From Loripinus fragilis (Eukaryota; Mollusca; Bivalvia; Lucinida; Lucinidae): a stretch of 64,000 bases of DNA. The notes beneath the pieces were generated by a model. It was not told the origin of the DNA. It made no database searches and was given only the letters and a program-made list of their open reading frames with translations. Below are positions 13,276 to 64,000 of this stretch, piece by piece. Location of the stretch: the NCBI GenBank assembly GCA_964019695.1, contig CAXHUL010000250.1:1364001-1428000 (forward strand), in the 5' to 3' direction. A program made the position numbers and the translations under genes. Each line of letters opens with the position of its first letter. The first letter of the stretch is position 1.

Positions 13276-13311
13276 ATTCGTCTCGATGGAACTAATTTTC
13301 AAATTGGATAT

Positions 13312-29246: not shown

Positions 29247-30503
29247 ATCCCTCGACAAAGTCGGAGGCATATAGTTTTGACATCGTCCGTCCGTCCCTCC
29301 ATCCATTCCGTCCGTGGGTCTGCACTTTTTGTCTGTCCGGAACCATCTGTATCTCAGTACCTATTGGTCAGATTCAATTCATTCTTGGTACAAATGATAA
29401 GTACCATGAACTCTCGATATCCTATAAGTTTGGTCATAACTTGAGTTATTTCCCTTGTTAAAGTATAGGCAATTATAAGGCAAAACCTATATTAGCTTTT
29501 TTTGTGTGATGATCTTCACATTTCATCAAGGCTATTATATTTAAAAACTTCTCGTTATAGACCATGATTGCCAAGTGTCTGTAGATAAGAATGGCAGTGT
29601 CAAAGTTTTACCCCACCGTAGGGGTCAAAGGTCAAATATTTAAATTTCGCAATAACTAAGGCAATTATTAATATTTTTGCTGAATTTTTGCATGCAGGCA
29701 GAGCAGCAATAGCTATGAAACGTATCAAACGGGATTTCAGTATGAAGGCCTGAATCCGAGCCCCTTGGGTGGACTTAGGGGGTGGGGCCTAGGCCAAAAT
29801 TAAACTTTTTCAGAATATGGTCATGTTGCAAATCAAATTAAAGCTGACGACGCTGGCAGCAACATGGTGGCAAATATTTTGCCCACAGACACACCCTGGA
29901 CCCAGGGGGTGGGGTCAAAAGGTCAAACTATATATTTTTCTGAAAGTAGTCATGTTGCATATCAAATTAAAGCTGACGACGCTGGCAGCAACATGGTAGC
30001 AAATATTTTGCCCACAGACATACCCTTGACCAAGGGGGTGGGGTTAAAAGGTCAAACTATATCTTTTACTGAAAGTAGTCATGTTGCATATCAAATTAAA
30101 GGGAATTGAGCACAGAGCACCATGAAAGCTAGTATGCTGTCATTACACACACCAGCGACCCCTGGGGTGGGGTCAAAAGGTCATTTTTTGTTCTTTTCTA
30201 AAAGTGGTCATGTTGCATATCAAAGTAAAGTGGAAGAAGTGTAGACCTACATGCAAGGTAACACTTTGAATTTACATACAATCTTGACCTCTGAGGTTGG
30301 GTTTAAAGGTCAGATATTGGTATTGTGCAGATGTAAGTATATTTTTTATAGAACTAAGCACTAAAATATACTTGACAGGCGTTTGTTATGATCTGAATAA
30401 TACTGTAGGTGAACTAAGGGTTAGATAGATGGGATTTATGTTTTGTGATTTACATGTTTCTCTCAAATAACCCTTCGTCGGGGATATAAATTCATCGAAT
30501 TTG
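29247..30503 (+). mobile_element. CCCCGACGAAG element (copy 2, near full length)
   Basis: Starts ATCCCTCGACAAAGTCGGAGG with GTCCGTCCGTCC and ends CTTCGTCGGGGATATAAATT. It is inserted into another repeat: CAGAAGGGT...AAAATACAGGTCAAGTT occurs on both sides (29100 and 30527). The interior has tandem 127-bp units (29818-30090). Confidence 0.6.
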
Positions 30504-32746: not shown

Positions 32747-33282
32747 TTTGCTTTCACCTGTTGTACTCATAATGGACTTATCTTATTTGACTGATGGTCA
32801 TTTTGAATGCAACGGGCTTCCGTATGGTCATGGCTTGTCTGATCTCTTTTTACCTATTGCACTCAGAATGGACTTCTGTCATTGGAGTGGTAGTAATTTT
32901 GAGTGCAACCTTCTACCCCATGGCAGTGGTTTAATTGATCTCCTTACACCTGTTGCAATCAGAATGGACATATACATCAATGGAGTGTTGGTCATTTTGA
33001 GTGCAACAGACTTCATTTTGGACAAGGTTTATCTGCTCTCCTTTTACCCATTGCACTCAGAATGGACTTATCCCATCAGAGTAGTGGTCTTTTTGAGTGC
33101 AATGGGTTTCCTCATGGTCATAGTATGTCTGATTTCCTTTTATCCATTGCACTCAAATGGACTTATCAGAGTAGTGGTCTTTTTGAGTGCAATGGGTTTC
33201 CTCATGGTCATTGTATGTCTGATCTCTGTTTACCTATTGCACTCAAATGGACTTATCAGAGCAATGGTCTTTTTGAGTGCAA
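32747..33282. repeat. Degenerate ~100-bp tandem repeat
   Basis: Five or six units with TTGCACTCA(A/G)AATGGACTTA, GGTC(A/T)TTTTGAGTGCAA and CCTCATGGTCATAGTATGTC. The last units are closest to each other. The long open frame crossing it is carried by the repeat. Confidence 0.7.
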
Positions 33283-34075
33283 CTCACTGGGCCCTAGACA
33301 TATGCAGGTTGTCTAGTGCCTTTGTAGCAGAGCTGCTTGTATCTTTAATACAGCAGGCTTGGATTTTCCAGACAGATAGAATTCCTTCAACTCACTGGGA
33401 CCTAGACTTATGCAGGTTGTCTAGTGCCTTTGTAGCAGAGCTGCTTGTATCTTTAATACAGCAGGCTTGGATTTTCCAGACAGATAGAATTCCTTCAACT
33501 CATTGGGCCCTAGACATATGCAGGTTGTCTAGTGCCTTTATAGCAGAGCTGCTTGTATCTTTAATACAGCAGGCTTGGATTTTCCAGACAGATAGAATTC
33601 CTTCAACTCACTGGGCCCTAGACATATGCAGGTTGTCTAGTGCCTTTGTAGCAGAGCTGCTTGTATCTTTAATACAGCAGGCTTGGATTTTCCAGACAGA
33701 TAGAATTCCTTCAACTCACTGGGCCCTAGACATATGCAGATTGTCTAGTGCCTTTGTAGCAGAGCTGCTTGTATCTTTACTATAGCAGACTTGGATTTTC
33801 CTGACAGATAGAATTCCTTCAATTCACTGGGCCCTAGACATATGCAGGTTGTCTAGTGCCTTTATAGCATGGCTGCTTGTATCTTTAATACAGCAGGCTT
33901 GGATTTTCCAGACAGATAGAATTCCTTCAATTCACTGGGACCTAGACATATGCAGCTTGTCTAGTGCCTTTATAGCAGAGCTGCTTGTATCTTTAATACA
34001 GCAGGCTTGGATTTTCCAGTCAGACAGAATTCCTTCAAATTCAGAGGCAGCAGTTAAAGAGCTATAGCTTGAAGC
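33283..34075. repeat. 108-bp satellite array, block 1
   Basis: About seven head-to-tail units of 108 bp (ACTCACTGGGCCCTAGACAT, ATGCAGGTTGTCTAGTGCC, GCAGAGCTGCTTGTATC, CAGGCTTGGATTTTCCAGAC). The unit length is a multiple of three and one frame lacks stops, so long open frames of 36-residue repeats appear. Differences between units are a mix of silent and replacement changes and one unit has a stop, which argues against protein selection. Confidence 0.9.
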
Positions 34076-34545
34076 ATCTTAGTTGTTAACTGAAAACATG
34101 ACTGGGCAGTTTTGACATATTGGATATTTTTCACATTAATTGTACTGTGGTATTTTATAACTCCACAATAAAATGTTATAGTGTGATCTCATGTGATAAT
34201 ATCTATGAGCAAAAAGGTTCAACCATGTATATGTTTGACTGACTGAGTGTGGTAAGGTTCCTTATCTTAACTGTTTTCACCTTAGTATTTGGGGAGCACA
34301 GTGGCTCTGATTTGACTGGGGAACATAGGATTTCTAGTCTGTCTCACTGTGGGAGGTGTCACTGTGTTGTGTCTTTGAGCAACATTATCCACTGCCAAGT
34401 ACTGGTTCAACCAACAAAGACTCGTCCAACATGACTGAAAAATGTTGACTGTGATGTTAAGAATCAAGACAAACAAAAGCTTCATATTTGCTTTTCTGCT
34501 CCTACTCTTTAATTAAATCTTAAGTTTTCTTTTATTTTCTTAAGG
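34076..34545. repeat. Array spacer with captured SINE, copy 1
   Basis: A spacer of about 470 bp between array blocks, carrying a diverged SINE at about 34293-34480 (GGGGAGCACAGTGGCTCTG, TACTGGTTCAACCAAC, GTTAAGAATCAAGACAAAC). It is repeated nearly unchanged at 35446-35925 and 36285-36765, so the SINE was in the ancestral unit before the larger duplications. Confidence 0.8.
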
Positions 34546-35445
34546 TTTGCTCAACTCACTTGGGCCATAGACATATGCTGGTTGTCTAGTGTCTCTACAG
34601 CAGAGCTGCTTGTATCTTTAATACAGCAGGCTTGGATTTTCCAGACAGATAGAATTCCTTCAACTCACTGGGCCCTAGACATATGCAGGTTGTCTAGTGC
34701 CTTTGTAGCAGAGCTGCTTGTATCTTTAATACAGCGGGCTTGGATTTTCCAGACATATAGAATTCCTTCAACTCACTGGGCCCTAGACATATGCAGATTG
34801 TCTAGTGCCTTTGTAGCAGAGCTGCTTGTATCTTTAATACAGCAGGCTTGGATTTTCCAGGCAGATAGAATTCCTTCAACTCACTGGGCCCTAGACATAT
34901 GCAGGTTGTCTAGTGCCTTTGTAGCAGAGCTGCTTGTATCTTTAATACAGCAGGCTTGGATTTTCCAGACAGATAGAATTCCTTCAACTCACTGGGCCCT
35001 AGACATATGCAGATTGTCTAGTGTCTCTACAGCAGAGCTGCTTGTATCTTTAATACAGCAGGCTTGGATTTTCCAGACAGATAGAATTCCTTCAACTCAC
35101 TGGGCCCTAGACATATGCAGGTTGTCTAGTGCCTTTGTAGCAGAACTGCTTGTATCTTTAATACAGCAGGCTTGGATTTTCCAGACAGATAGAATTCCTT
35201 CAAATCACTGGGCCCTAGACATATGCAGATTGTCTAGTGCCTTTGTAGCAGAGCTGCTTGTATCTTTAATACAGCAGGCTTGGATTTTCCAGACAGATAG
35301 AAATCCTTCAACTCACTGGGCCCTAGACATATGCAGGTTGTCTAGTGCCTTTATAGCAGAGCTGCTTGTATCTTTAATACAGCATTGGATTTTCCAGTCA
35401 GACAGAATCCCTTCAAATTCAGAGGCAACAGTTAAAGAGCTATAG
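34546..35445. repeat. 108-bp satellite array, block 2
   Basis: About eight units of the same 108-bp repeat as block 1, ending with the same terminal variant (GACAGAATCCCTTCAAATTC, AGAGCTATAGC). Units alternate in variants such as GTCTCTACAGCAGAGC against GCCTTTGTAGCAGAGC. Confidence 0.9.
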
Positions 35446-35925
35446 CCTGAAGCAACTTAGTTGTTAACTGAGAACATGACTGGGCAGTTTTGACATATTG
35501 GATATTTTTCACATTTATCATACTGTGGTATTTTATAACTCCACAATAAAATGTTATAGTGTGATCTCATGTGATAATATCCATGAGCAAAAAGGTTCAA
35601 CCATGTATATGTTTGACTGAGTGTGGTAAGGCTACTTATTTTAGCTGTTTTTACCTCAGTATTTGGGTAGCGCAGTGGCTCTGATTTGACTGGGGAACAT
35701 AGGATTTCTAGTCTATCTCACTGTGGGAGGTGTCACTGTGTTGTGTCTTTGAGCAACATTATCCACTGCCAAGTACTGGTTCAACCAAGGAAGAAAATGC
35801 CCAACATGACTGAAAAATTGTTGGCTGTGATGTAAAGAATCAAGACAAACAAAAGCTTCATATTTGCTATTCTGTTCCTACTCTTTAATTAAATCTTAAG
35901 TTTTCTTTTATTTTCTTAAGGTTTG
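35446..35925. repeat. Array spacer with captured SINE, copy 2
   Basis: Copy of the spacer at 34076-34545, about 95% alike by eye. Confidence 0.8.
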
Positions 35926-36284
35926 CTCAACTCACTTGGGCCATAGACAAATGCTGTTTTTCTAGTGTCTCTATAGCAGAGCTGCTTTTATCTTTAATAC
36001 AGCAGGCTTGGATTTTCCAGACAGATAGAATTCCTTCAACTCACTGGGCCCTAGACATATGCAGGTTGTCTAGTGCCTTTATAGCAGAGCTGCTTGTATC
36101 TTTAATACAGCAGGCTTGGATTTTCCAGACAGATAGAATTCCTTCAACTCACTGGGCCCTAGACATATGCAGGTTGTCTAGTGCCTTTGTAGCAGAGCTG
36201 CTTGTATCTTTAATACAGCAGGCTTGGATTTTCCAGTCAGACAGAAACCCTTCAAATTCAGAGGCAGCAGTTAAAGAGCTATAG
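35926..36284. repeat. 108-bp satellite array, block 3
   Basis: About three units plus the terminal variant. Shorter than blocks 1 and 2, showing that unit number changes between blocks. Confidence 0.9.
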
Positions 36285-36765
36285 CCTGAAGCAACTTAGT
36301 TGTTAACTGAGAACATGACTGGGCAGTTTTGACATATTGGATATTTTTTCACTTTAATCATACTGTGGTATTTTATAACTCCACAATAAAATGTTATAGT
36401 GTGATCTCATGTGATAATATCCACGAGCAAAAAGGTTCAACCATGTATATGTTTGACTGACTGAGTGTGGTAAGGTTCCTTATCTTTACTGTTTTCACCT
36501 TAGTATTTGGGGAGCACAGTGGCTCTGATTTGACTGGGGAACATAGGATTTCTAGTCTGTCTCACTGTGGGAGGTGTCACTGTGTTGTGTCTTTGAGCAA
36601 CATTATCCACTGCCTAGTACTTGTTCAACCAACGAAGACTCATCCAACATGACTGAAAAATGTTGACTGTGATGTTAAGAATTAAGACAAACAAAAGCTT
36701 CATATTTGCTTTTCTGCTCCTACTCTTTAATTAAATCTTAAGTTTTCTTTTATTTTCTTAAGGTT
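36285..36765. repeat. Array spacer with captured SINE, copy 3
   Basis: Third copy of the spacer. It is closest to copy 1 in the SINE part. Confidence 0.8.
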
Positions 36766-37470
36766 TGCTCAACTCACTTGGGCCATAGACATATGCTGGT
36801 TGTCTAGTGTCTCTACAGCAGAGCTGCTTGTATCTTTAATACAGCAGGCTTTGATTTTCCAGACAGATAGAATTCCTTCAACTCACTGGGACCATAGAAA
36901 TATGTAGGTTGTCTAGTGCCTCTTTGGCAGAGTTACTTATATCTTTCATCCAGCAGGCTTGGATTTTCTAGCTGGGTTGAATTCCTTAAAATTCAGAGGA
37001 AATAGTTGAAGAGCTATAGCCTGAAGCATGATAGTAATACTGTAATAATATATATCTCTCCACAATATATTGTTTCAGTGTTTATGTCCATGAGCAGTAA
37101 TATGCAGCCATGTATATGTGTAACAGATTAAAAGTGTGGTAAGGTTACTGTTCTTAAATATTACATCTTCAGGAAAACTTCTTCAAATTTGCTTTCCTCT
37201 TCGTACTCATGTATTTAATTAGATATTTCATAATGTTTCTTTAATTTGCTTCTGCTTTGACCAAACTCACTGGGGCTATAGAACTAATTGAGCTGCCAAG
37301 TGCTTCTTTAGTAGAGCCTCTTGTATCATTTATACAGCAGAGCTTCAGGCCTAATGTCTGATAGAAGTCCTCTGCATCCAGAGGTAACAGTTACAGAGCT
37401 AAAGCCTGTAGCAAGTTAACTGAGTAAATGTCAGTGCAGTTGTTTCAAATAGGGCAATGGTTTGACTGCT
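36766..37470. repeat. 108-bp satellite array, decayed edge block
   Basis: One or two recognisable units to about 37013, then increasingly diverged copies of unit and spacer sequence (AGAGCTATAGCCTGAAGCA, TTTAATTAGATATTTCAT), as expected at the old edge of an array. Confidence 0.65.
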
Positions 37471-53139: not shown

Positions 53140-53975
53140 CGGTAAATGTTCTAAAATTTCGAACACTCTAAAATTACGAACACCTAAAATTATCGCCGAA
53201 AATAATTTTTAAAACATCCTAAAAATTCGAACACTGCCCTTTTTCGGAAAAGTGAATTTCTAAAATTACGAACACACGTTATTTTCCGCGGAAAATCGAT
53301 GTCAATTTACCTGTTTGTCCCATCTGTGTTTGGTATACTTCTACCGTACAGCACGTGAGCGGTAGCGGCATTTGGAATGTTCCATTCTACTTAGATTTGT
53401 AATCTGGCATGTGGCGTTCTATTTCGCATGCTAGCGCGCGACGTTATACATTATACATTATTCAAGGTCACCAGCATTGACGAACTTGATGCACGGACAA
53501 GTTCCTGCAACGATTCCGAAACTGCTTTGACTAACCCTATTGAGTATATGTATCCACCCGAATGGCTGAGATCATTATTTATTACTGACCAAAGGCCGCG
53601 ATTCAGCTAATTGTACGTTAATTATGCACGCTGACAAACGCATATATAGTGTGCTGTGACACGTACCCGTTTTTTTCTCTATAATACCAGCCCCGAAGAG
53701 AGAGTTAACTTAAGGCTTAAATATGTGTTATTCTCAGGTTATCCGACTGACACCCCCTACCCTCCCCTCCCTTTTAAACATTTTAAAGGATTTTCCAGTT
53801 CGACAATATGTCCAAGTCGCGTGCGACACGGAGGGCACTTCTATCATTCTATATATATAATTCTATGCGTGTGCTCTTTTCTTGAACACAGCTTGGACCC
53901 GAGCATGAAATCAACTTGCGCGGAGCCCCATATGAGCTTGGTACTTATGACAGATGTGAGTAGTATAGGCGCCAC
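53140..53975. other. Unassigned DNA with 'AAAATTACGAACAC' repeats
   Basis: At 53145-53285 CTAAAATTACGAACAC recurs four or five times. The rest is unassigned; CpG content rises toward 54000, so the palindromic element may begin somewhere here. Confidence 0.35.
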
Positions 53976-53986
53976 TATAGCGCATT

Positions 53987-54090
53987 TGACGTCACTTCCG
54001 GTCCAAGATGGCGGCCCCCACGACGTCAGATCCAAGATGGCGGCCCCCACGACACCAAGATGGCGGCCCCCACGAAATCAAGATGGCGGC
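53987..54090. promoter_or_regulatory. CRE + ETS + four YY1-type motifs
   Basis: TGACGTCA (CRE/ATF) at 53987 runs directly into CTTCCGG (ETS/GABP) at 53995. Four copies of AAGATGGCGGC, the activating YY1 motif, follow at 54005, 54034, 54057 and 54080 in units of 29, 23 and 23 bp. In animals this combination marks TATA-less core promoters of housekeeping type, where YY1 sites sit at or just after the start site. It is next to, and perhaps inside, the left palindrome arm. Confidence 0.55.
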
Positions 54091-54488
54091 CCCTGTGACG
54101 CGTTCGGTTACACCTCGGAGGGTGAGTCAACGCCCTAGACCACGAGAAGGTAGCGTCACGTCCTAGAGCGCGGTGTCGTTCTTCTATATACAAGGGTGAG
54201 GGGCCTCTCAATTATTTCCGGGTGTTTTTTTTTACGAAGTTCAGAACGAGATCCAGTCTTTAATGGTGTAGCGCGTCGCAGCGCTCGGTTTATCCCGTTC
54301 CCCCGGTGGGCCCTTTTTTTTCAGCACGGTCCTTTCACATCTTTTTCCACATACTGATCGGCTTCTTAATTGGGTCGTTAAGGCTGAGAGGGATATGATT
54401 GTCTATCAACGTAGAACGGGTTCTTCGCCATGCATATGGCGTCTGGCTAACTTAGGAGCATATTACGCAATTATTTGCTGTTCGTCCT

Positions 54489-54815
54489 TTAGTATCTTAA
54501 TGAATTCCAGTCCGAAGTTGCTGTCTTACGCCCTCCGTTCGTTATACTATGCTCTCCTTTTCGCTTAAGCTCCGATTTTGCCATTTCTAAAGCTTGGGCT
54601 ACTGGGGTGACCAGGTTCACTATGGGTTTTTCCTTTTGTCTCATTTCTTTCAACTCTCTGTATTTCCGTCCACTACCCACAATATAATGACCCTGACTGT
54701 CGCGTTCCGCGTAGCCATCTCTAACATCCAGCAAATGCTGATACCATTTGTCGGGATCCGACACGTACGGAATCCACTTCTGCTGTTGGTAATCGTAAAC
54801 GAGTCTAGTGCCCAT
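54489..54815 (-). CDS. Conserved-looking 108-residue protein (left copy)
   Basis: Identical in sequence to the right-arm copy at 63397-63723; see that entry. Perfect protein conservation between arms that differ elsewhere suggests recent duplication, constraint, or both. Confidence 0.65.
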   Translation of the reverse strand: MGTRLVYDYQQQKWIPYVSDPDKWYQHLLDVRDGYAERDSQGHYIVGSGRKYRELKEMRQKEKPIVNLVTPVAQALEMAKSELKRKGEHSITNGGRKTATSDWNSLRY

Positions 54816-54865
54816 CTCTTTTGATCGATTTCCTCCTTCGTGCTCGAGTTATTCTTACGCTCTAT

Positions 54866-55018
54866 TCATACGAACGGGCGAAAGTCTAGTTCACTATCCT
54901 CAAGCACCTCGATTAATCGCTCAGCAGCCTCTCTGGCTTCGCGCCGTAGTTGTCTACATCTCATCCGAAACAACAGTTCATCAAACAAAGCTATACACAT
55001 AAAAGTAATGGCGAACAT
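54866..55018 (-). CDS. 50-residue protein with hydrophobic start (left copy)
   Basis: Mirror of 63194-63346 with one replacement (Ala for Ser at residue 10). Intact. Confidence 0.45.
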   Translation of the reverse strand: MFAITFMCIALFDELLFRMRCRQLRREAREAAERLIEVLEDSELDFRPFV

Positions 55019-55054
55019 ATTTACGCCTACTCAATACTTAATCCCTTTTCTTAG

Positions 55055-55132
55055 TTACCAGTTTTGATAGTCATTTGGGTTACACTCCGAACACCGTAAT
55101 GCGCCTAACTGATTCATGTGATCACTTTGCAT
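55055..55132 (-). CDS. 25-residue CxxC ORF (left copy)
   Basis: Mirror of 63080-63157: a tiny frame with a CSEC zinc-knuckle-like pair. Low confidence as a real product. Confidence 0.2.
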   Translation of the reverse strand: MQSDHMNQLGALRCSECNPNDYQNW

Positions 55133-55156
55133 GTAACAGGGTACGACCCCGTCTAG

Positions 55157-55540
55157 TTAGGGTAAGACCTTTCCAATTTCTGTTAAGAGTTCTTTGACGG
55201 CAATGTATTCTAGGGGTCTCAGGTATAATCCCTTTTTCGTAGGTATCACCTCTTCTTGCGGCTTCCAATACTGCCTTATATCCATACATGCGCTGCCCTC
55301 GGTGATGGTACAATAAACGTTCCCTCCAAGATGACTCTTATAGTTTTGTTTCTCTGTCCTCGCTTGATCCGCGTATTCTAAGTAATCCACCCAATTCTTC
55401 CATCGCATCAAGGTTAAGCTGATACCTTTTTTGGTCGGTTTGTCATCTTTCCATTCTCTCAGGTCAACACGCAGTTCACCTTTCCATTCTGTGACCTCGA
55501 TAAAGCGATCGTTTCCGAGACTGAATCTGCATCTAGACAT
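55157..55540 (-). CDS. Tandem double PC4-like protein (left copy)
   Basis: Mirror of 62672-63055; intact, 127 residues, with one seen replacement between arms (Lys against Glu at residue 64, in the linker between the two PC4 units). The longer open frame to 55585 would need a non-ATG start; I chose the ATG at 55540, which lies just below the TATA/Inr cassette. Function described under the right copy. Confidence 0.85.
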   Translation of the reverse strand: MSRCRFSLGNDRFIEVTEWKGELRVDLREWKDDKPTKKGISLTLMRWKNWVDYLEYADQARTEKQNYKSHLGGNVYCTITEGSACMDIRQYWKPQEEVIPTKKGLYLRPLEYIAVKELLTEIGKVLP

Positions 55541-55545
55541 GTTTA

Positions 55546-55620
55546 CTGTTTGACTGTCAGAATAGATATGACTAGATTGCTGCAAAGCGCCTTATATAGT
55601 GAGAGGTCTCTTCTGATTGG
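55546..55620 (-). promoter_or_regulatory. CCAAT-TATA-Inr promoter of the double-PC4 gene (left copy)
   Basis: Mirror of 62592-62666: CCAAT (55616-55620), CTATATAA and the conserved downstream block with TCATA and CTGACAGTC. Confidence 0.7.
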
Positions 55621-55683
55621 TCAATTATACAACCATCCGATTGGTCAACCTCCTCACTCCTGATCCCTCCTCCTCATTCTCCG

Positions 55684-56989
55684 TCACGATGTAGTAGAGT
55701 CCTCTTGGTCTTCAGAGGCTTTCTCGGTTTCTATATTATGATTCGGCCATACGTCCATAAATAAATCTTTTCTGAGTTTGATGGCTTGTCTGATAGAGTC
55801 CGCCTGATTCATATCGTGTTGGTTCTTAAACGTTTTAGCCGATTCCAGTATTCGCTGTTGAACAGGATCCTCTTGTAGCTCGTAATAATCTATTAGAAAT
55901 TGAGCGTAATCTCGTCTGAGTTTTTTGCGGAGAGAAGGCAAATCATCATTGGCTGCGAGATGAATAGCTTTATCCGAACTAAAACCGCGCTCTTCATAAG
56001 CATTCACTTTAGCTTTAAACTGCTCTACGTTCTCCTGCCTGATCGGATTTTGAAATCTCCTGTTCCAGATGTCGAGTTTAGAGCGCTCATCTTTGTTTTC
56101 TTCGTTTACCTGGAGGGCTTAAATAGCTTACCCTCCTATTCCATATATACGGTTTATAACTTTCATCTCTTTCTTTATCCGGAGGGCTGATAGAGCGTAT
56201 ATAATCTAGGGACTCCACACTGTCAGCATCTTCATCATCAGAAATATCTCCGTCATCGGGAGACTGTTGATCGACAAATATGTCAGTTTGTAGTCTGTCC
56301 TGTTCGGATGTACTGGATTTAAGATCTAGGACGAGGTAACCATAAGGTCTTGCCGTGGCATCTTCAAATTTCCTCATAAATGTGACGCAAGTGGACGGAT
56401 AAATTCTTCTTGCCAAGGTCGCAACTTGTTGTCTGTCGATCGGATTATTAAACAAGACCAAATATTGCGTATTTAAAGCGATATCCCTGCAAGCTCTACC
56501 TTGAGGAAATACGTTTTGAGTCAAATACACGATAGATATATTTCTGTGGTGACTGCCTTTCGTAAAAAGGTCGGCAATTCTCTGGTCACACTTTGCTTCG
56601 GTCATCAGGTCATCAAAAATGATTAGGTTCCTTTTTGAGGGATCCATAAACTGAGCATTATCTAGATAGTCTGGGATACCCCGTATAAATTCTATACACG
56701 GAATTCTCTTCTGAAGGTCTTCGTACAGGGGCTGCCATTGTCCAAAACACCATAAGATTCGTTCCGGTGGCGGTTGTACTAACGAGGAAAGTAACAGTTT
56801 TCTAGTCCATTCCGTTTTCCCCGATCCGCTGGGTCCAGTTACCATCATAGAGAATGGGTGTCTAAATGTCATTTCCTTCAATGGTTGTGACTGGTCGGTA
56901 TATTTCCCACTGCCATGGACATTGCGTTCATGTCTTTGCAATGCATCACGCCTACTATAGGACTGGTTGCAGATCAAACACCTGATCAT
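55684..56989 (-). pseudogene. Packaging-type ATPase, frameshifted (left copy)
   Basis: Same gene as 61221-62528, but two bases are missing near 56090-56092 relative to the other arm. The frame meets a stop at once, after residue 300. The first part (56087-56989) keeps the C2H2 finger, Walker A GPSGSGKT, Walker B-like IIFDD and the YLTQN sensor. The C-terminal part remains open at 55684-56007 in another frame. A truncated protein with a complete P-loop domain could still be made, so loss of function is likely but not certain. Seen replacements against the right copy include residues 22, 32 and 132. Confidence 0.85.
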
Positions 56990-57060
56990 TTTGTCTCAGT
57001 TAGTATTGCTTGTCTACCTTCATACGGGTGCCATCCTTCTTACGATCATTGGATCATTGT

Positions 57061-57235
57061 TACCACCACCACCACCGACAACACCACCAGCACCGACACC
57101 AACCACCACCACCACAGACACCACCACCCACCACCACCACCACCACCACCGACACCACCCACCACCACCACCACCACCACCACCACCGACACCTACAACC
57201 ACCACCACCAAACACCACCACCACCACCACCACAT
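57061..57235. repeat. (CCA)n tract, left arm
   Basis: Near-pure ACC/CCA triplets with occasional GAC; G/T-rich on the strand that is sense for the ATPase. It yields false His/Pro/Thr-rich frames. Somewhat longer than the mirror tract in the right arm. Confidence 0.95.
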
Positions 57236-57249
57236 GGTGGACCATTGTT

Positions 57250-57945
57250 TCCTGACTGTACATTCACTGTATCCTCACTGTATCCCTACTGAACCCTCAT
57301 TGTGCCCCAATATACCCTCACTGTATCCTCACTGTATCCTCCCTGTACCCACACTGTATCCCACTGTACCCCAACTGAACCCTCACTGTGCCCCAATGTA
57401 CCCTCACTGTACCCCACTGTACTCTCACTGTATCCCTAATGTATCCTCCCTGTATCCTCAATGTATCCTCCTTCTCTCCTCCTCCTCACCCTCTCCTCCT
57501 CCCTCCTAATCCCAATGTACCCCAACTGAACCCTCACTGAGCCCCAATGTACCCTCACTGTACCCCACTGTACTCTCACTGTATCCTCCCTGTACCCTCA
57601 ATGTATCCCAATGTACCCCAACCGAACCCTCACTGTATCCTCACGGTGCCCCAATGTACCCTCACTGTATCCTCACTGTACCCCACTGTACTCTCACTGT
57701 ATCACCACTGTATCCTCCCTGTACCCTCAATGTATCCTCCTTTCCTCCTCCTCCTCGCCCTCTCCTCATCCCTCCTAATCCCACTGTACCCCGACTGAAC
57801 CCTCACTGTGCCCCAATGTACCCTCACTGTATCATCACTGTACCCCAATGTACTCTCACTGTATCCCCACTTTATCCTCCCTGTACCCTCACTGTATCCT
57901 CCTTCCCCCCTACTCCTCACCCTCTCCTCCTCCCTCCTAGCTCCA
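57250..57945. repeat. 'ACTGTATCCTC' minisatellite, left arm
   Basis: About sixty imperfect 10-11-bp units (CACTGTACCC, CACTGTATCC, AATGTACCCT), interrupted three times by CTCCTCCTC-rich blocks. The periodic frames (Y-P-H-C repeats) are artefacts. Confidence 0.95.
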
Positions 57946-58047
57946 TTATGAATTTGAACTATCATGATCACTGTTTTTACGGCCATTATACTCGTTGTAG
58001 AACGTTCTATCATCGTAGGTTCACCGGTAATTGTTGGTTGACCATGA

Positions 58048-58191
58048 TTATATAATGATTAAGCATAACAGTTTCGCTTTAAACAACCAGTCGTCAGCAT
58101 TTGCGCTATGTATAGTCTTAAGATGATGTACTTTATTTAGCACATACTTTCTATCGCATATTGGACACTGGATCTTGTATCTATGAGGCAT
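58048..58191 (-). CDS. 47-residue zinc-finger protein (left copy)
   Basis: Mirror of 60000-60143. Cys and His ligands are kept; Lys replaces Ile at residue 20 and one residue differs in the C-terminal Ile-rich tail. Confidence 0.55.
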   Translation of the reverse strand: MPHRYKIQCPICDRKYVLNKVHHLKTIHSANADDWLFKAKLLCLIII

Positions 58192-58405
58192 AGTTTTGAT
58201 CTGTTTTTAAACACCATTTAAAACGAAACTTTATGTATACCAGCTTGCTGGGCAAGCCTTTCCTTTTAAATCGAAACTTTTATAATACAAACGCGAGCCT
58301 TACTTTTAAAACGACACTTTTATGTATAACCTGGCAAGCCTTTCCTTTTAAATCTAAACGCTTGTAATACAAGTGCGAGTCTTCCCTTTAAAACGACACT
58401 TTTAT
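58192..58405. repeat. 82-89-bp direct repeats (left arm)
   Basis: Mirror of 59786-59999. Confidence 0.75.
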
Positions 58406-58538
58406 GTTTCAGCTTCCTGGGCAAGGCTTTTCACGCAGTCTTATAACGCGAAGATGAACAACGCTATGAAAAAAACGTGTGGTGTTCCAAATCACCAAAC
58501 GTTTGCGCTACATCGTATCATTTAAACTGTTCAATTTG

Positions 58539-58615
58539 CTGTTCAATTGTCAGATTAGCTATGACTCGATTGCATACGATGCGCATTATATAGCGAGAGG
58601 TTTTTTTCTGATTGG
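58539..58615 (-). promoter_or_regulatory. CCAAT-TATA-Inr promoter (left copy)
   Basis: Mirror of 59576-59652, with the TATA box as TTATATAG on the + strand at 58587. Confidence 0.65.
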
Positions 58616-58731
58616 TCAATAATTAATCATAGTAATATCGTTATAAATGTATATCATAAGCCATACATTTCGCAATTCGTCTCTAGACTATGAACAGACG
58701 ATACGTAAGTTGAATTTAGGGGTTAACTGTC

Positions 58732-58785
58732 TCATGTACCTACCTGTACACGAGCAGCGAAGACTCTGACGTCTGACTCTGCCAT
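58732..58785 (-). CDS. Short ORF or first exon behind the central promoter (left copy)
   Basis: Mirror of 59406-59459, including the potential CAG|GTAGGT donor. Confidence 0.3.
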   Translation of the reverse strand: MAESDVRVFAARVQVGT

Positions 58786-58825
58786 CTAACAAAGGCGAAG
58801 AATGAGAATAATCGCATTATTGGTG

Positions 58826-58835
58826 TATTTATATA
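58826..58835 (-). promoter_or_regulatory. TATA box of the left central promoter
   Basis: TATATAAATA on the minus strand, mirror of 59356-59365; an Inr-like TCATTC lies 30 bp downstream. Confidence 0.65.
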
Positions 58836-59040
58836 CCCTAGACATTTGGAATGAAAAGGGCGAAAATCGCCATCGCCTTTCCTAGTACACGCTATAGATA
58901 CATCAAACGTCTGGTCCGATGGACAGGCTCATCTGCTTGAATAACGCACTCTGATCAGTAAATTCGATGTGGAACAGCGAAGACCCAACGCAATGATACA
59001 GCACAGTCGTGCGTATTGAAAAGGTGGGTTTTCCGTGGGC

Positions 59041-59150
59041 CTGTCTCAATTCATTCAACAATATAATCAGCTGCTGACCGGATCTGACCAGATGCCTCCA
59101 CTTTGATCCATGTAATGAAATCGCTTATCGATTTTACAATTCAGGAGTAT
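59041..59150. other. Unique 110-bp spacer at the palindrome centre
   Basis: The only part of the palindrome without a mirror copy. Arms meet it at ...TTTTCCGTGGGC and GCCCACGGAAAA.... It contains a small hairpin AAATCG-CTTAT-CGATTT (59118-59134) and a GATCTGACCAGATG block. No ORF. It separates two outward promoters. Confidence 0.8.
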
Positions 59151-59355
59151 GCCCACGGAAAACCCACCTTTTCAATACGCACGACTGTGCTGTATCATTG
59201 CGTTGGGTCTTTGCTGTTCCACATCGAATTTACTGATCAGAGTGCGTTATTCAAGCAGATGAGCCTGTCCATCGGACCAGACGTTTGATGTATCTATAGC
59301 GTGTACTAGGAAAGGCGATGGCGATTTTCGCCCTTTTCATTCCAAATGTCTAGGG

Positions 59356-59391
59356 TATATAAATACACCAATAATGCGATTATTCTCATTC
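59356..59391 (+). promoter_or_regulatory. Central outward promoter (TATA + Inr)
   Basis: TATATAAATA at 59356-59365 with TCATTC, an initiator match, 30 bp downstream at 59386-59391. A mirror copy drives the other arm, so the centre is a divergent promoter pair. Confidence 0.65.
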
Positions 59392-59405
59392 TTCGCCTTT
59401 GTTAG

Positions 59406-59459
59406 ATGGCAGAGTCAGACGTCAGAGTCTTCGCTGCTCGTGTACAGGTAGGTACATGA
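59406..59459 (+). CDS. Short ORF or first exon behind the central promoter
   Basis: The first ATG after the TATA/Inr promoter opens a 17-codon frame (MAESDVRVFAARVQVGT). It contains CAG|GTAGGT at 59447/59448, a strong splice-donor match, so it may be the first coding exon of a spliced transcript. A possible acceptor is TTTTTTTCATAG at 59727, but I cannot fix the splice partner. Present in both arms. Function unknown. Confidence 0.3.
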   Translation: MAESDVRVFAARVQVGT

Positions 59460-59575
59460 GACAGTTAACCCCTAAATTCAACTTACGTATCGTCTGTTCA
59501 TAGTCTAGAGACAAATTGCGAAATGTATGGCTTATGATATACATTTATAACGATATTACTATGATTAATTATTGA

Positions 59576-59652
59576 CCAATCAGAAAAAAACCTCTCGCTA
59601 TATAATGCGCATCGTATGCAATCGAGTCATAGCTAATCTGACAATCGAACAG
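59576..59652 (+). promoter_or_regulatory. CCAAT-TATA-Inr promoter cassette 1
   Basis: GACCAATCAG (CCAAT box 59576-59580), CTATATAA at 59598 and, 28 bp below the TATA start, GTCATAGCTAATCTGACAAT with CGAACAG. The same order and spacing occur at 62592-62666. Likely drives the 47-residue zinc-finger gene and possibly the ATPase. Confidence 0.65.
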
Positions 59653-59785
59653 CAAATTGAACAGTTTAAATGATACGATGTAGCGCAAACGTTTGGTGAT
59701 TTGGAACACCACACGTTTTTTTCATAGCGTGGTTCATCTTCGCGTTATAAGACTGCGTGAAAAGCCTTGCCCAGGAAGCTGAAAC

Positions 59786-59999
59786 ATAAAAGTGTCGTTT
59801 TAAAGGGAAGGCTCGCACTTGTATTACAAGCGTTTAGATTTAAAAGGAAAGGCTTGCCAGGTTATACATAAAAGTGTCGTTTTAAAAGTAAGGCTCGCGT
59901 TTGTATTATAAAAGTTTCGATTTAAAAGGAAAGGCTTGCCCAGCAAGCTGGTATACATAAAGTTTCGTTTTAAATGGTGTTTAAAAACAGATCAAAACT
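59786..59999. repeat. 82-89-bp direct repeats upstream of the zinc-finger ORF
   Basis: ACATAAAAGTGTCGTTTTAA starts near 59785 and 59867, with a third partial copy near 59956. Each unit also has AAGGCTCGC, TTGTATTA and TTTAAAAGGAAAGGCTTGCC. They lie in the leader between promoter cassette 1 and the zinc-finger ATG, so could be regulatory or part of an intron. Confidence 0.75.
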
Positions 60000-60143
60000 A
60001 TGCCTCATAGATACAAGATCCAGTGTCCAATATGCGATAGAAAGTATGTGCTAAATATAGTACATCATCTTAAGACTATACATAGCGCAAATGCTGACGA
60101 CTGGTTGTTTAAAGCGAAACTGTTATGCATAATCATTATATAA
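60000..60143 (+). CDS. 47-residue zinc-finger protein
   Basis: Small intact frame with one C2H2-like finger: Cys9 and Cys12 in CPIC, then HH (22-23) and His28 in HHLKTIH. The gap between the Cys pair and the first His is ten residues, shorter than the classical twelve, as in some viral and zinc-knuckle proteins. The C-terminus is Ile-rich. It lies behind promoter cassette 1 and before the minisatellite. Both arms keep the zinc ligands. DNA or RNA binding is inferred; the specific role is unknown. Confidence 0.55.
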   Translation: MPHRYKIQCPICDRKYVLNIVHHLKTIHSANADDWLFKAKLLCIIII

Positions 60144-60245
60144 TCATGGTCAACCAACAATTACCGGTGAACCTACGATGATAGAACGTTCTACAACGAG
60201 TATAATGGCCGTAAAAACAGTGATCATGATAGTTCAAATTCATAA

Positions 60246-60944
60246 TGGAGCTAGGAGGGAGGAGGAGAGGGTGAGGAGTAGGGGGAAGGAGGATACAGTG
60301 AGGGTACAGGGAGGATAAAGTGGGGATACAGTGAGAGTACATTGGGGTACAGTGATGATACAGTGAGGGTACATTGGGGCACAGTGAGGGTTCAGTCTGG
60401 GTACAGTGGGATTAGGAGGGATGAGGAGAGGGCGAGGAGGAGGAGGAAAGGAGGATACATTGAGGGTACAGGGAGGATACAGTGGTGATACAGTGAGAGT
60501 ACAGTGGGGTACAGTGAGGATACAGTGAGGGTACATTGGGGCACCGTGAGGATACAGTGAGGGTTCGGTTGGGGTACAGTGGGATACATTGAGGGTACAG
60601 GGAGGATACAGTGAGAGTACAGTGGGGTACAGGGAGGGTACATTGGGGCTCAGTGAGGGTTCAGTTGGGGTACATTGGGATTAGGAGGGAGGAGGAGAGG
60701 GTGAGGAGGAGGAGAGAAGGAGGATACATTGAGGATACAGGGAGGATACATTAGGGATACAGTGAGAGTACAGTGGGGTACAGTGAGGGTACATTGGGGC
60801 ACAGTGAGGGTTCAGTTGGGGTACAGTGGGATACAGTGTGGGTACAGGGAGGATACAGTGAGGATACAGTGAGGGTATATTGGGGCACAGTGAGGGTTCA
60901 GTTGGGGTACAGTGGGATACAGTGAGGATGTAGTGAATGTACAG
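60246..60944. repeat. 'GAGGATACAGT' minisatellite, right arm
   Basis: Purine-rich on the + strand: GTACAGTGAGG, GATACAGTGAG and GTACATTGGGG units of 10-11 bp, interrupted by GAGGAGGAGAGG blocks. Between the zinc-finger ORF and the ATPase. Periodic frames on both strands are artefacts. Confidence 0.95.
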
Positions 60945-60965
60945 TCAGGAAACAATGGTCCACCA

Positions 60966-61148
60966 TGTGGTGGTGGTGGTGGTGGTGTTTGGTGGTGGTG
61001 GTTGTAGGTGTCGGTGGTGGTGGTGGTGGTGGTGGTGGTGGGTGGTGTCGGTGGTGGTGGTGGTGGTGGGTGGTGGTGGTGGGTGGTGGTGTCTGTGGTG
61101 GTGGTGGTTGGTGTCGGTGCTGGTGGTGTTGTCGGTGGTGGTGGTGGT
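60966..61148. repeat. (GGT)n tract, right arm
   Basis: Near-pure GGT triplets on the sense strand of the ATPase, ending about 70 bp before its ATG. Such G-runs of two can form G-quadruplex or R-loop structures. Shorter than the mirror tract, so it has changed length since the arms were formed. Confidence 0.95.
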
Positions 61149-61220
61149 AACAATGATCCAATGATCGTAAGAAAGATGGCATGTGTATGAAGGTAGACAA
61201 GCAATACTAACTGAGACAAA

Positions 61221-62528
61221 ATGATCAGGTGTTTGATCTGCAACCAGTCCTATAGTAGGCGTGATGCATTGCAAAGACATGAACACAATGTCCATGGCAG
61301 TGGGAAATATACCAACCAGTCACAACCATTGAAGGAAATGACATTTAGACACCCATTCTCTATGATGGTAACTGGACCCAGCGGATCGGGGAAAACGGAA
61401 TGGACTAGAAAACTGTTACTTTCCTCGTTAGTACAACCTCCACCGGAACGAATCTTATGGTGTTTTGGACAATGGCAGCCCCTGTACGAAGACCTTCAGA
61501 AGAGAATTCCGTGTATAGAATTTATACGGGGTATCCCAGACTATCTAGATAATGCTCAGTTTATGGATCCCTCAAAAAGGAACCTAATCATTTTTGATGA
61601 CCTGATGACCGAAACAAAGTGTGACCAGAGAATTGCCGACCTTTTTACGAAAGGAAGTCACCACAGAAATATATCTATCGTGTATTTGACTCAAAACGTA
61701 TTTCCTCAAGGTAGAGCTTGCAGGGATATCGCTTTAAATACGCAATATTTGGTCTTGTTTAATAATCCGATCGACAGACAACAAGTTGCGACCTTGGCAA
61801 GAAGAATTTATCCGTCCACTTGCGTCACATTTATGAGGAAATTTGAAGATGCCACGGCAAGACCTTATGGTTACCTCGTCCTAGATCTTAAATCCAGTAC
61901 ATCCGAACAGGACAGACTACAAACTGACATATTTGTCGATCAACAGTCTCCCGATGACGGAGATATTTCTGATGATGAAGATGCTGACAGTGTGGAGTCC
62001 CTAGATTATATACGCTCTATCAGCCCTCCGGATAAAGAAAGAGATGAAAGTTATAAACCGTATATATGGAATAGGAGGGTAAGCTATTTAAGCCCTCCAG
62101 GTAAACGAAGAAAACAAAGAGATGAGCGCTCTAAACTCGACATCTGGAACAGGAGATTTCAAAATCCGATCAGGCAGGAGAACGTAGAGCAGTTTAAAGC
62201 TAAAGTGAATGCTTATGAAGAGCGAGGTTTTAGTTCGGATAAAGCTATTCATCTCGCAGCCAATGATGATTTGCCTTCTCTCCGCATAAAACTCAGACGA
62301 GATTACGCTCAATTTCTAATAGATTATTACGAGCTACAAGAGGATCCTGTTCAGCAGCGAATACTGGAATCGGCTAAAACGTTTAAGAACCAACACGATA
62401 TGAATCAGGCGGACTCTATCAGACAAGCCATCAAACTCAGAAAAGATTTATTTATGGACGTATGGCCGAATCATAATATAGAAACCGAGAAAGCCTCTGA
62501 AGACCAAGAGGACTCTACTACATCGTGA
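61221..62528 (+). CDS. Packaging-type P-loop ATPase with N-terminal C2H2 finger
   Basis: 435 residues, intact. Residues 4-25 are a C2H2 finger (Cys4, Cys7, His20, His25). Residues 52-59 GPSGSGKT are Walker A; NLIIFDD (121-127) is Walker B with a double Asp; YLTQN (155-159) fits the sensor strand; LARRIYP near 197 may hold an arginine finger. An acidic stretch follows around 245-270, then a basic SPPGKRRKQR likely to be a nuclear signal, and a helical C-terminus. The layout matches the FtsK/HerA-type DNA-packaging ATPases of Polinton/adintovirus elements (A32-like), which pump DNA into capsids using ATP. There is no TATA box just upstream; TACTAAC (a perfect branch-point match) lies at 61206, so it may be expressed from a spliced transcript starting at cassette 1. 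The class is firm at the P-loop level; the packaging role is inferred. Confidence 0.8.
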   Translation: MIRCLICNQSYSRRDALQRHEHNVHGSGKYTNQSQPLKEMTFRHPFSMMVTGPSGSGKTEWTRKLLLSSLVQPPPERILWCFGQWQPLYEDLQKRIPCIEFIRGIPDYLDNAQFMDPSKRNLIIFDDLMTETKCDQRIADLFTKGSHHRNISIVYLTQNVFPQGRACRDIALNTQYLVLFNNPIDRQQVATLARRIYPSTCVTFMRKFEDATARPYGYLVLDLKSSTSEQDRLQTDIFVDQQSPDDGDISDDEDADSVESLDYIRSISPPDKERDESYKPYIWNRRVSYLSPPGKRRKQRDERSKLDIWNRRFQNPIRQENVEQFKAKVNAYEERGFSSDKAIHLAANDDLPSLRIKLRRDYAQFLIDYYELQEDPVQQRILESAKTFKNQHDMNQADSIRQAIKLRKDLFMDVWPNHNIETEKASEDQEDSTTS

Positions 62529-62591
62529 CGGAGAATGAGGAGGAGGGATCAGGAGTGAGGAGGTTGACCAATCGGATTGTTGTATAATTGA

Positions 62592-62666
62592 CCAATCAGA
62601 AGAGACCTCTCACTATATAAGGCGCTTTGCAGCAATCTAGTCATATCTATTCTGACAGTCAAACAG
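62592..62666 (+). promoter_or_regulatory. CCAAT-TATA-Inr promoter cassette 2
   Basis: CCAAT at 62592-62596, CTATATAA at 62613-62620, and AGTCATATCTATTCTGACAG with TCAAACAG at 62639-62666. The TCATA lies 27 bp from the TATA box, where an initiator is expected. Nearly the same module as 59576-59652. The double-PC4 ATG follows 6 bp after the block. Confidence 0.75.
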
Positions 62667-62671
62667 TAAAC

Positions 62672-63055
62672 ATGTCTAGATGCAGATTCAGTCTCGGAAA
62701 CGATCGCTTTATCGAGGTCACAGAATGGAAAGGTGAACTGCGTGTTGACCTGAGAGAATGGAAAGATGACAAACCGACCAAAAAAGGTATCAGCTTAACC
62801 TTGATGCGATGGAAGAATTGGGTGGATTACTTAGAATACGCGGATCAAGCGAGGACAGAGGAACAAAACTATAAGAGTCATCTTGGAGGGAACGTTTATT
62901 GTACCATCACCGAGGGCAGCGCATGTATGGATATAAGGCAGTATTGGAAGCCGCAAGAAGAGGTGATACCTACGAAAAAGGGATTATACCTGAGACCCCT
63001 AGAATACATTGCCGTCAAAGAACTCTTAACAGAAATTGGAAAGGTCTTACCCTAA
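62672..63055 (+). CDS. Tandem double PC4-like ssDNA-binding protein
   Basis: 127 residues from the ATG at 62672. Two PC4 (p15/Sub1) domains occur in one chain. Unit 1 (about 13-55) has VTEWKGELRVDLREW and TKKGISLTLMRW; unit 2 (72-122) has CMDIRQYW and PTKKGLYL. These match the PC4 signature of an 'IRE-Y/W' strand, a short loop, 'KKGI-L' and a C-terminal helix. Cellular PC4 works as a homodimer of single domains that binds ssDNA and assists RNA polymerase II; here the dimer appears to be fused. In a virus-like element it could serve late transcription or protect ssDNA during replication. It has its own promoter cassette. Domain call is firm, role inferred. Confidence 0.88.
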   Translation: MSRCRFSLGNDRFIEVTEWKGELRVDLREWKDDKPTKKGISLTLMRWKNWVDYLEYADQARTEEQNYKSHLGGNVYCTITEGSACMDIRQYWKPQEEVIPTKKGLYLRPLEYIAVKELLTEIGKVLP

Positions 63056-63079
63056 CTAGACGGGGACGTACCCTGTTAC

Positions 63080-63157
63080 ATGCAAAGTGATCACATGAAT
63101 CAGTTAGGCGCATTACGGTGTTCGGAGTGTAACCCAAATGACTATCAAAACTGGTAA
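63080..63157 (+). CDS. 25-residue CxxC ORF
   Basis: Tiny frame between the double-PC4 gene and the 50-residue ORF, with LRCSECNPNDYQNW at its end. CxxC alone could be half a zinc site. Kept in both arms, but too short to be sure it is translated. Confidence 0.2.
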   Translation: MQSDHMNQLGALRCSECNPNDYQNW

Positions 63158-63193
63158 CTAAGAAAAGGGATTAAGTATTGAGTAGGCGTAAAT

Positions 63194-63346
63194 ATGTTCG
63201 CCATTACTTTTATGTGTATATCTTTGTTTGATGAACTGTTGTTTCGGATGAGATGTAGACAACTACGGCGCGAAGCCAGAGAGGCTGCTGAGCGATTAAT
63301 CGAGGTGCTTGAGGATAGTGAACTAGACTTTCGCCCGTTCGTATGA
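63194..63346 (+). CDS. 50-residue protein with hydrophobic start
   Basis: Intact in both arms. It begins with a hydrophobic stretch (MFAITFMCISLFDELLF), continues with a basic, Arg-rich region (about 18-33) and ends acidic (EVLEDSELDF). This could be a small membrane-anchored protein with a cytoplasmic helix. It lies between the double-PC4 gene and the 108-residue gene. No family recognised. Confidence 0.45.
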   Translation: MFAITFMCISLFDELLFRMRCRQLRREAREAAERLIEVLEDSELDFRPFV

Positions 63347-63396
63347 ATAGAGCGTAAGAATAACTCGAGCACGAAGGAGGAAATCGATCAAAGGAG

Positions 63397-63723
63397 ATGG
63401 GCACTAGACTCGTTTACGATTACCAACAGCAGAAGTGGATTCCGTACGTGTCGGATCCCGACAAATGGTATCAGCATTTGCTGGATGTTAGAGATGGCTA
63501 CGCGGAACGCGACAGTCAGGGTCATTATATTGTGGGTAGTGGACGGAAATACAGAGAGTTGAAAGAAATGAGACAAAAGGAAAAACCCATAGTGAACCTG
63601 GTCACCCCAGTAGCCCAAGCTTTAGAAATGGCAAAATCGGAGCTTAAGCGAAAAGGAGAGCATAGTATAACGAACGGAGGGCGTAAGACAGCAACTTCGG
63701 ACTGGAATTCATTAAGATACTAA
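63397..63723 (+). CDS. Conserved-looking 108-residue protein
   Basis: Intact and identical in both arms. The N-terminal half is aromatic-rich (YDYQQQKWIPYVSDPDKWY) and includes GHYIVGSGRKY; the C-terminal half is Lys/Arg-rich with NLVTPVAQALEMAKSELKRK. It resembles in outline the small basic proteins that accompany packaging ATPases in virus-like elements, which may be virion or core proteins; I cannot name a family. Its ATG is preceded by a purine-rich AAAGGAG. It follows the 50-residue ORF by 50 bp, so the genes may share a transcript from cassette 2. Confidence 0.65.
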   Translation: MGTRLVYDYQQQKWIPYVSDPDKWYQHLLDVRDGYAERDSQGHYIVGSGRKYRELKEMRQKEKPIVNLVTPVAQALEMAKSELKRKGEHSITNGGRKTATSDWNSLRY

Positions 63724-64000
63724 AGGACGAACAGCAAATAATTGCGTAATATGCTCCTAAGTTAGCCAGACGCCATATGCATGGCGAGGAACTCGTTCTA
63801 CGTTGATAGACAATCATATCCCTCTCAGCCTTAACGACCCAATTACGAAGCCGATCAGTACGTGGAAAAAGACGTGAAAGACCGTGCTGAAAAAAAAGGG
63901 CCCACCGGGGGAACGGGATAAACCGAGCGCTGCGACGCGCTACACCATTAAAGACTGGATCTCGTTCTGAACTTCATAAAAAAACCCACCCGGAAATAAT
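63724..64000. other. Outer part of the right arm, CpG-rich, cut by the window
   Basis: GC-rich sequence with GGGCCCACCGGGGGAACGGG and GAGCGCTGCGACGCGC, mirrored at 54211-54488. No ORF recognised. Confidence 0.4.

Follow-up and report, generated by a model that had tools for sequence, protein, structure and literature searches.

We analyzed a 64,000-nucleotide stretch of the genome of the lucinid bivalve Loripinus fragilis (assembly GCA_964019695.1, contig CAXHUL010000250.1, positions 1,364,001 to 1,428,000; hereafter the window), the far end of which carries a palindrome of virus-like genes bounded by ends of the type found on Polinton/Maverick transposons. The assembly searched comprises 1,987,113,829 bases in 685 contigs; contigs are labeled C (the window being C244:1364001-1428000) and stretches of sequence fetched from them L. 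A first-pass annotation had described a palindrome at 54211 to 64000, with two inverted arms of about 4.85 kb meeting at a 110-bp spacer. The inverted arms (54211-59040 and 59151-64000, around a spacer at 59041-59150) were borne out by gapped alignment, which gave 39 substitutions and five indels over 4852 columns. However, the earlier right end was simply the edge of the window, and the palindrome therefore runs beyond 64000: the first 252 bases of the contig stretch directly beyond the window (L009:1-252, positions 64001-64252) match positions 53959-54210 at 100%, the right arm continuing past the window. The palindrome is thus real but longer than described, extending from 53959 to 64252 (∼10.3 kb, with arms of ∼5.08 and ∼5.10 kb). 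It has AGTAGT ends and is flanked by 6-bp target duplications, GATGTG.

Each arm of the window palindrome carries genes for a protein combining a C2H2 zinc finger with an A32-type ATPase, for a PC4-like protein and for a 108-amino-acid (108-aa) protein, all three pointing outward, plus a small frame whose match to a zinc finger is weak (Table 1). The ATPase of the right arm matched the Pox_A32 Pfam profile above cut-off (7.3e-07), and profiles agree with the earlier call of an outward-reading packaging-type ATPase and PC4-like protein in both arms, the left ATPase frame being broken. Among PDB sequences the ATPase gave zinc-finger matches only (E 0.05-0.15), and no confirmed relative was found in virus contigs scanned with the single ATPase and with an 18-sequence alignment, or in prokaryote genome contigs in one scan. 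The 108-aa protein had no credible match in Pfam or PHROGs; its kinship came to light through a match to the 123-aa protein of a full-length Polinton from this genome (described below). The claim that the arms hold a complete set of virus-like genes did not survive: no PolB, integrase or protease match was found in the window palindrome by tblastn with PolB pieces from two families (900 aa of one, the N-terminal 315 aa of the putative helper family), two integrases and one protease (from another family), and two capsid-type queries recovered only a remnant of about 25 residues. The window arms thus hold no polymerase, integrase or capsid gene detectable in this way. Two similar stretches identified by eye (59573-59607 and 62590-62622) each combine CCAAT and TATA boxes (gaccaatcag...ctctc.ctatata); one lies upstream of the PC4 gene and one near the inner arm end, making them possible shared promoters.

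Table 1. Features of the palindrome, in window positions
Feature	Positions	Strand	Remarks
Target-site duplication GATGTG, left copy	53953..53958		Right copy L009:253-258, outside window
Left arm	53959..59040	-	Main genes read outward (leftward)
Terminal part, begins AGTAGTATAGG	53959..54345	+	Common to terminal inverted repeats of full-length Polinton
Capsid-type gene remnant (Polinton 416-aa gene), 71 bp	54346..54416	-	91.5% to L040:1033-1103
108-aa protein, left arm	54489..54815	-	Polinton 123-aa protein matches, residues 1-89, 80%
PC4-like protein, left arm	55157..55540	-	Listed frame 55157-55585; ATG equivalent to that of the right arm at 55540
C2H2 zinc finger/A32-type ATPase gene, left arm	55684..56989	-	Frame broken; open copies exist
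Low-complexity block, left arm: (ACC)n, then 11/22-bp minisatellite	57062..57939	.
Inner arm end	58900..59051	-	96.7% to internal Polinton segment L040:4723-4873
110-bp loop	59041..59150	.	Homologous in 12/12 aligned copies
Right arm	59151..64000	+	Continues to 64252 (L009:1-252)
47-aa frame, C2H2-like zinc finger	60000..60143	+	Profile matches under curated cut-off only
Minisatellite + (GTG)n block, right arm	60252..61148	.
435-aa protein, right arm, open	61221..62528	+	C2H2 finger (below cut-off) + Pox_A32-type packaging ATPase
PC4-like protein, right arm	62672..63055	+	Pfam PF02229, 1.9e-19
108-aa protein, right arm	63397..63723	+

Similar palindromes are widespread in the assembly. A 401-base probe spanning the center returned 361 candidates, of which 40 were scored; all 40 matched at least 376 of 401 bases at ≥93%, and 36 also matched the opposite strand (at least 225 bases at ≥82%). 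A 30-base loop core recurs without mismatch at 104 places (42 + 62), against 0 for a reversed control. Nine further copies, each covered for 10 kb to the left and right of the center, all proved palindromic; they measure 10.0-10.7 kb in total, and their arms are 98.65-99.48% identical. Palindromy therefore holds for 10 of 10 copies covered through both arms, and all 10 have AGTAGTATAGG at both ends and AGTAGT termini. Eight of the nine lie at other loci with target duplications of their own, and one (on contig C342) has the flanks of the window copy (99.6-99.9% over 5.5 kb on the left; on the right, 99.1% over 585 bases with no match farther out). The C342 copy is an allele or duplicated haplotig of the window insertion. 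Eight of the nine distinct loci have perfect 6-bp duplications (GATGTG for the window and C342, then ATCAGA, GACGTA, CCTGAC, TCTAAT, GAGTGG, GTTACT and AATGCA), and at the ninth the duplication is imperfect (CCACGA/CCTCGA, five of six bases). Loop cores also occur as pairs on the same strand at C370:928645/932622 (4.0 kb apart) and C2:124064918/124072284 (7.4 kb apart), perhaps representing tandem or nested palindromes.

Occurrences of the end pattern AGTAGTATAGGYSCC (607, as 320 + 287; control 3 + 3) were paired for the first 100 of the 607 ends (C1, C2 and part of C3), yielding 35 facing pairs and 30 unpaired ends. Spacing was 8.5-11.5 kb in 23 pairs, shorter in six (5.3-7.9 kb) and longer in six (15.1-23.7 kb). 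Lists compared by eye placed the exact loop core near the middle of 10 of the 23 mid-size pairs, two of which are palindromic through both arms while four more have opposite-strand center matches. From 10 of the remaining 13, a 300-base piece was sampled in each arm, the two at mirrored positions. In eight, the pieces were reverse complements (97-100% over 291-300 bases); in C1:11.78 they overlapped by 59 bases at 100% and, in opposite orientations, both matched a single arm type; in C2:55.1 they fell in the minisatellite, again in opposite directions, with a mutual match of 81% only. Counting these as nine clear inverted repeats and one weak one alongside the 10 full copies, the palindrome is the usual form of the element, an option that the first-pass annotation had raised. 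Facing ends 5.3-6.5 kb apart (C1:981408-986680, C2:85863748-85869400, C1:105090263-105096780 and C3:1472760-1479274) might represent palindromes of smaller size or deletion derivatives of another kind.

The same genome holds full-length Polintons, each locus being covered here in part. The element at C2:97724906-97741056 (left and right end stretches L040 and L041) measures 16.15 kb, has 661-bp terminal repeats at 98.6% identity and a target duplication AACGGA, and encodes a 416-aa capsid-type protein, a 123-aa protein, PolB, an integrase (rve + chromo), a 174-aa protein homologous to the TATA-binding protein (TBP; PF00352, 3.9e-26), a 217-aa ATPase and a 109-aa protein. For the 217-aa ATPase, profiles stayed below cut-off; it is 36% identical to the ATPase of the palindrome. 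The 416-aa protein had no Pfam match and, among PDB sequences, a single match that is not credible (E 0.74). Its relatives are “F54H12.2-like” proteins of Ruditapes, Mercenaria, Mytilus and oysters, as well as proteins in Thiodiazotropha and Sedimenticola assemblies; we take the “F54H12.2-like” proteins to be Polinton capsid proteins, hence the label “capsid-type”. Three of the six longer end pairs enclose a PolB match. The protein cluster nearest the palindrome ATPase (96% identical) holds 1802 sequences and that nearest the Polinton capsid-type protein (98%) holds 361, a ratio that, with source assemblies unspecified, is only suggestive.

Contrary to the contrast drawn with ordinary Polintons in the first-pass annotation, the ends of the palindrome, its target duplications and part of its sequence are those of a Polinton. 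Window positions 53994-54345 are 97.2% identical to the left terminal repeat (L040), and 53959-54345 are 91.5% identical to the right one (L041; gaps counted). The 5′ half of the Polinton 123-aa gene is found at 95.7% identity in the 108-aa frame. Within the loop, 59120-59144 equals L040:4705-4729 at 100% and is collinear with the start of the right arm (through L040:4873), and the loop is therefore Polinton interior that continues one arm, in agreement with the prediction for a folded-back genome; by eye, the likeness runs on to ∼L040:4675, with indels in mid-loop. The same inner match, in the same order, was found in a second Polinton (L042, a 5-kb sample of a 23.4-kb element on C1), which belongs to the same family over ∼2.8 kb, is unmatched over the rest, and contains no PC4 or C2H2-ATPase gene in the 5 kb covered. 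A second Polinton family (L028, L038 and L039, on C4; 1585-aa PolB) was considered as the parent and set aside: in the stretches covered it has no DNA in common with the arm and no AGTAGTATAGG ends. This family has PC4-like, integrase, capsid-type, ATPase and adenovirus-like protease (below cut-off) frames, and 11 PolB matches of the same range were found, nine of them in open 1585-aa frames.

The cargo of the palindromes varies. Type 1 (108-aa protein, PC4 and C2H2-ATPase) was found in seven of 10 copies (window, C342, C3, C10, C1, C14 and C13). In the other three (C17, C6 and C5), designated type 2, the outer arm is the Polinton integrase end, with genes for the 109-aa protein, ATPase, TBP-like 174-aa protein and integrase C-terminus; these are fused to the 5′ end of the C2H2-ATPase, followed by the inner half and loop of type 1. 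The junction falls at the identical base in both arms of C17, C6 and C5. Type 2 proteins of C17 and C6 are 94-100% identical to those of the Polinton (a comparison made without C5, whose ATPase frame is shorter), and the integrase of these two copies is represented by residues 276-378 of 378 only. The TBP homologue (L041:1721-2242 in the Polinton; e.g., L016:6871-7392 in type 2 palindromes) lies beside the packaging ATPase. In one sampled element (C2:37.5), two 300-base samples, one per arm and inverted relative to each other, match the Polinton capsid/123-aa region at 99%, which makes a third cargo type possible. Among the 14 type 1 arms, frames were open in seven (ATPase), 12 (PC4) and 10 (108-aa). 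The ratio of nonsynonymous to synonymous differences per site (pN/pS) between copies, leaving out window-C342 pairs and summed over pairs that are not independent, was 0.33 for the ATPase, 0.41 for PC4 and 0.44 for the 108-aa protein; within copies it was 0.52, 1.75 and 1.04, respectively, from 8-10 changes each. The 47-aa frame (0.72 between and 0.47 within copies) was not counted as a gene under selection.

On average, the arms of one copy resemble each other more than they resemble arms elsewhere. Divergence and trees were computed by segment from arms matching at least 85% of the segment in one stretch (10 of 20 arms for the inner segment; 14 of 20 for the ATPase and PC4-108 segments, which C17, C6 and C5 lack). 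Mean between-copy divergence was the same for same-side and opposite-side arms (inner 2.56/2.59%, ATPase 1.70/1.72%, PC4-108 2.39/2.41%; these sets include the window/C342 pair, the source of the lowest values), against within-copy values of 0.39-1.05% (inner, four copies), 0.23-1.38% (ATPase, seven) and 0.42-1.01% (PC4-108, seven). Both arms of one copy clustered in six of seven cases in the ATPase tree and six of seven in the PC4-108 tree, if the window and C342 are treated as a single locus clade, within which arms group by side in both trees; differences older than the separation of these two have therefore persisted. Over the whole arm (excluding gaps and the minisatellite at bases 2950-4150 from the outer end, and taking the window right arm to 64000), divergence was 0.53-1.04% in all 10 copies, and differences were evenly spread in seven. 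Variants at the loop edge were compared in 12 copies: C3 and C10 have the edge of the Polinton, six including the window share another, C14 has its own, and in C1, C2 and C6 the edge resembles a copy of the opposite side. The plainest account of these sequences is that both arms are derived from each other in every round and drift apart after insertion.

Taken together, we consider it probable that the palindrome is a non-autonomous Polinton/Maverick satellite that originated by snap-back, copies one arm from the other in each round, is integrated in trans and carries partly selected cargo. Under this model, a replicating Polinton strand would fold back at an internal point and copy itself, producing a molecule whose two termini are the same Polinton end (presumably replication origin and integrase site), with a loop of ∼110 nucleotides at its center. 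Both termini are indeed one Polinton end, the arms being one sequence inverted and type 2 having the integrase end twice, and loop and arms bear the marks of a fold-back genome, in line with the earlier suggestion of a replication dimer or hairpin-ended genome captured at integration. Because the strand is self-complementary, each round may include a hairpin stage at which one arm pairs with the other or is repaired or copied from it; arms would therefore stay nearly identical, and any new sequence gained by one arm would spread to both. Polinton integrase supplied in trans would insert the palindrome, leaving the 6-bp target duplications. Cargo may be partly retained by selection, possibly aiding its own packaging or expression through a packaging-type ATPase and PC4-like factor in type 1 and the Polinton ATPase and TBP-like factor in the other type. 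More tentatively, and with somewhat less than even confidence, these elements may form a stable, self-perpetuating satellite class with a hairpin life cycle, swapping outer arms with several Polinton ends, homogenizing arms in each round and using a packaging ATPase and transcription factor of their own to exploit a helper that they outnumber in this genome; the last point follows from the 23 mid-size against six longer pairs among the 35.

Several observations weigh against this interpretation. Hairpin replication, a Polinton helper (polymerase, integrase and capsid) and packaging are features that we infer for an element known from integrated copies alone. A parent carrying PC4 and C2H2-ATPase was not found in the stretches from three Polinton loci, each partly covered, where these genes have only relatives at 31-36% identity. 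The inner arm segment is inverted relative to the order at the Polinton left end, and type 1 is therefore a rearranged hybrid and no simple end duplication. As to selection, the ATPase is open in only seven of 14 arms, and its within-copy pN/pS (nine changes) is not clearly different from that between copies. Arms were not sisters for C3 in the ATPase tree or C10 in the PC4-108 tree (both with low support), arm differences were clustered in three of 10 copies (P < 0.01), which fits some gene conversion after insertion, and four of the 40 scored centers were weak on the opposite strand (two at 73-74%, two matching in short pieces only).

The clustered differences also bear on the rival explanation that the element propagates as ordinary double-stranded DNA while chromosomal gene conversion keeps its arms alike, as in sex-chromosome palindromes. 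Loop-edge variants resembling arm-to-arm copying fit this as well, and intrachromosomal conversion could also have carried the type 2 junction into both arms. However, the window and C342 retain the same side-specific differences in the ATPase and PC4-108 trees, meaning that these have not been converted since the two separated, and the even spread in seven of 10 copies is as expected if arms were identical at insertion; we regard conversion as the principal cause of arm identity as unlikely. Slightly less likely again is that the 10-kb palindrome arose as a dimer, on integration, of a virus-like genome that normally exists free as a 5-kb duplex closed by a hairpin at one end, and that has a life cycle of its own instead of being a defective by-product. 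The recurrent form of similar size and the between-copy pN/pS below 0.5 in three genes speak for such a virus. Against it, no polymerase, integrase or capsid gene was found in the window arms, and their ends are common with a Polinton that has polymerase, integrase and capsid-type genes.

Fold-back artifacts have been reported in long-read data (PMC12870357), and fold-back reads or collapsed haplotypes could in principle generate palindromes; misassembly was likewise an option in the first-pass annotation. Such an origin is very improbable here: target duplications lie at the outer palindrome ends at nine loci (eight perfect, one with five of six bases), the arms of one copy differ by 0.5-1.0%, the window insertion recurs with the same flanks and the same arm-specific differences on a second contig (C342), and opposite-strand matches were found at 36 of the 40 scored centers. 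Two independent head-to-head insertions of one element 110 bp apart would produce the picture in the window on its own, yet exact loop cores are present at 104 places, all 12 aligned centers share the loop, and target duplications enclose the palindrome as a whole. This is the least probable explanation of all, and for the copies covered here it is refuted by the recurrent loop and outer duplications.

Among known systems, the palindromic defective genomes of adenovirus and the hairpin or palindrome derivatives of yeast killer linear plasmids are fold-back products of protein-primed linear genomes. To our knowledge, none of these is a high-copy integrated transposon family. Fold-back of a protein-primed linear element would be expected to duplicate one end, to leave a short loop contiguous with one of the arms, and to make the product depend on a helper. 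Adeno-associated virus (AAV) replicates from hairpin ends, without protein priming. Its defective particles are reported to include snap-back genomes that replicate with helper functions and, like the palindrome, are self-complementary derivatives of one viral end (PMC8235507). As described there, however, AAV snap-back genomes occur in virus particles, whereas the palindrome forms a family integrated in chromosomes, with cargo of several types. The repeats of Galileo are largely non-coding. Foldback/Galileo elements have the same very long terminal inverted repeats and short middle, but Galileo is placed in the P-element group (PMC3573991), whereas the palindrome has ends, duplications and genes of Polinton type; identity with Foldback/Galileo was rejected given the Polinton ends and 6-bp duplications. 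Vertebrate Mavericks are reported to have (AGT)2//(ACT)2 end motifs and 6-bp duplications (PMC8097293). The palindrome shares with Polinton/Maverick elements the (AGT)2 ends, the 6-bp duplications, a terminal repeat (97% identical to the left repeat of the full-length Polinton) and an A32-type ATPase, but differs in that its arms hold the genes, each present twice, with the ∼110-bp loop as the sole single-copy part, and in its size (10 kb versus 16 kb) and the absence of any PolB, integrase, capsid or protease gene among those found. No earlier report of palindromic Polintons was found in a literature search for which most subscription papers were out of reach.

Elsewhere in the window, a 108-bp tandem repeat array occupies several blocks at 33280-36990, and an element containing a ∼129-bp tandem repeat is present in related copies at 7367-7694, 12734-13278 and 29806-30235.

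Free Polinton/Maverick particles are described as not yet observed (PMC8097293). Integrated snap-back genomes would constitute indirect evidence for extrachromosomal replication of Polintons as linear DNA with usable ends. If arms were identical at insertion, their divergence would provide a built-in insertion clock, as the repeats of retrotransposons do. The palindromes would represent a chromosomal family of satellites resembling defective genomes, with their own genes under selection, and possibly a brake on Polintons or a parasite of them.

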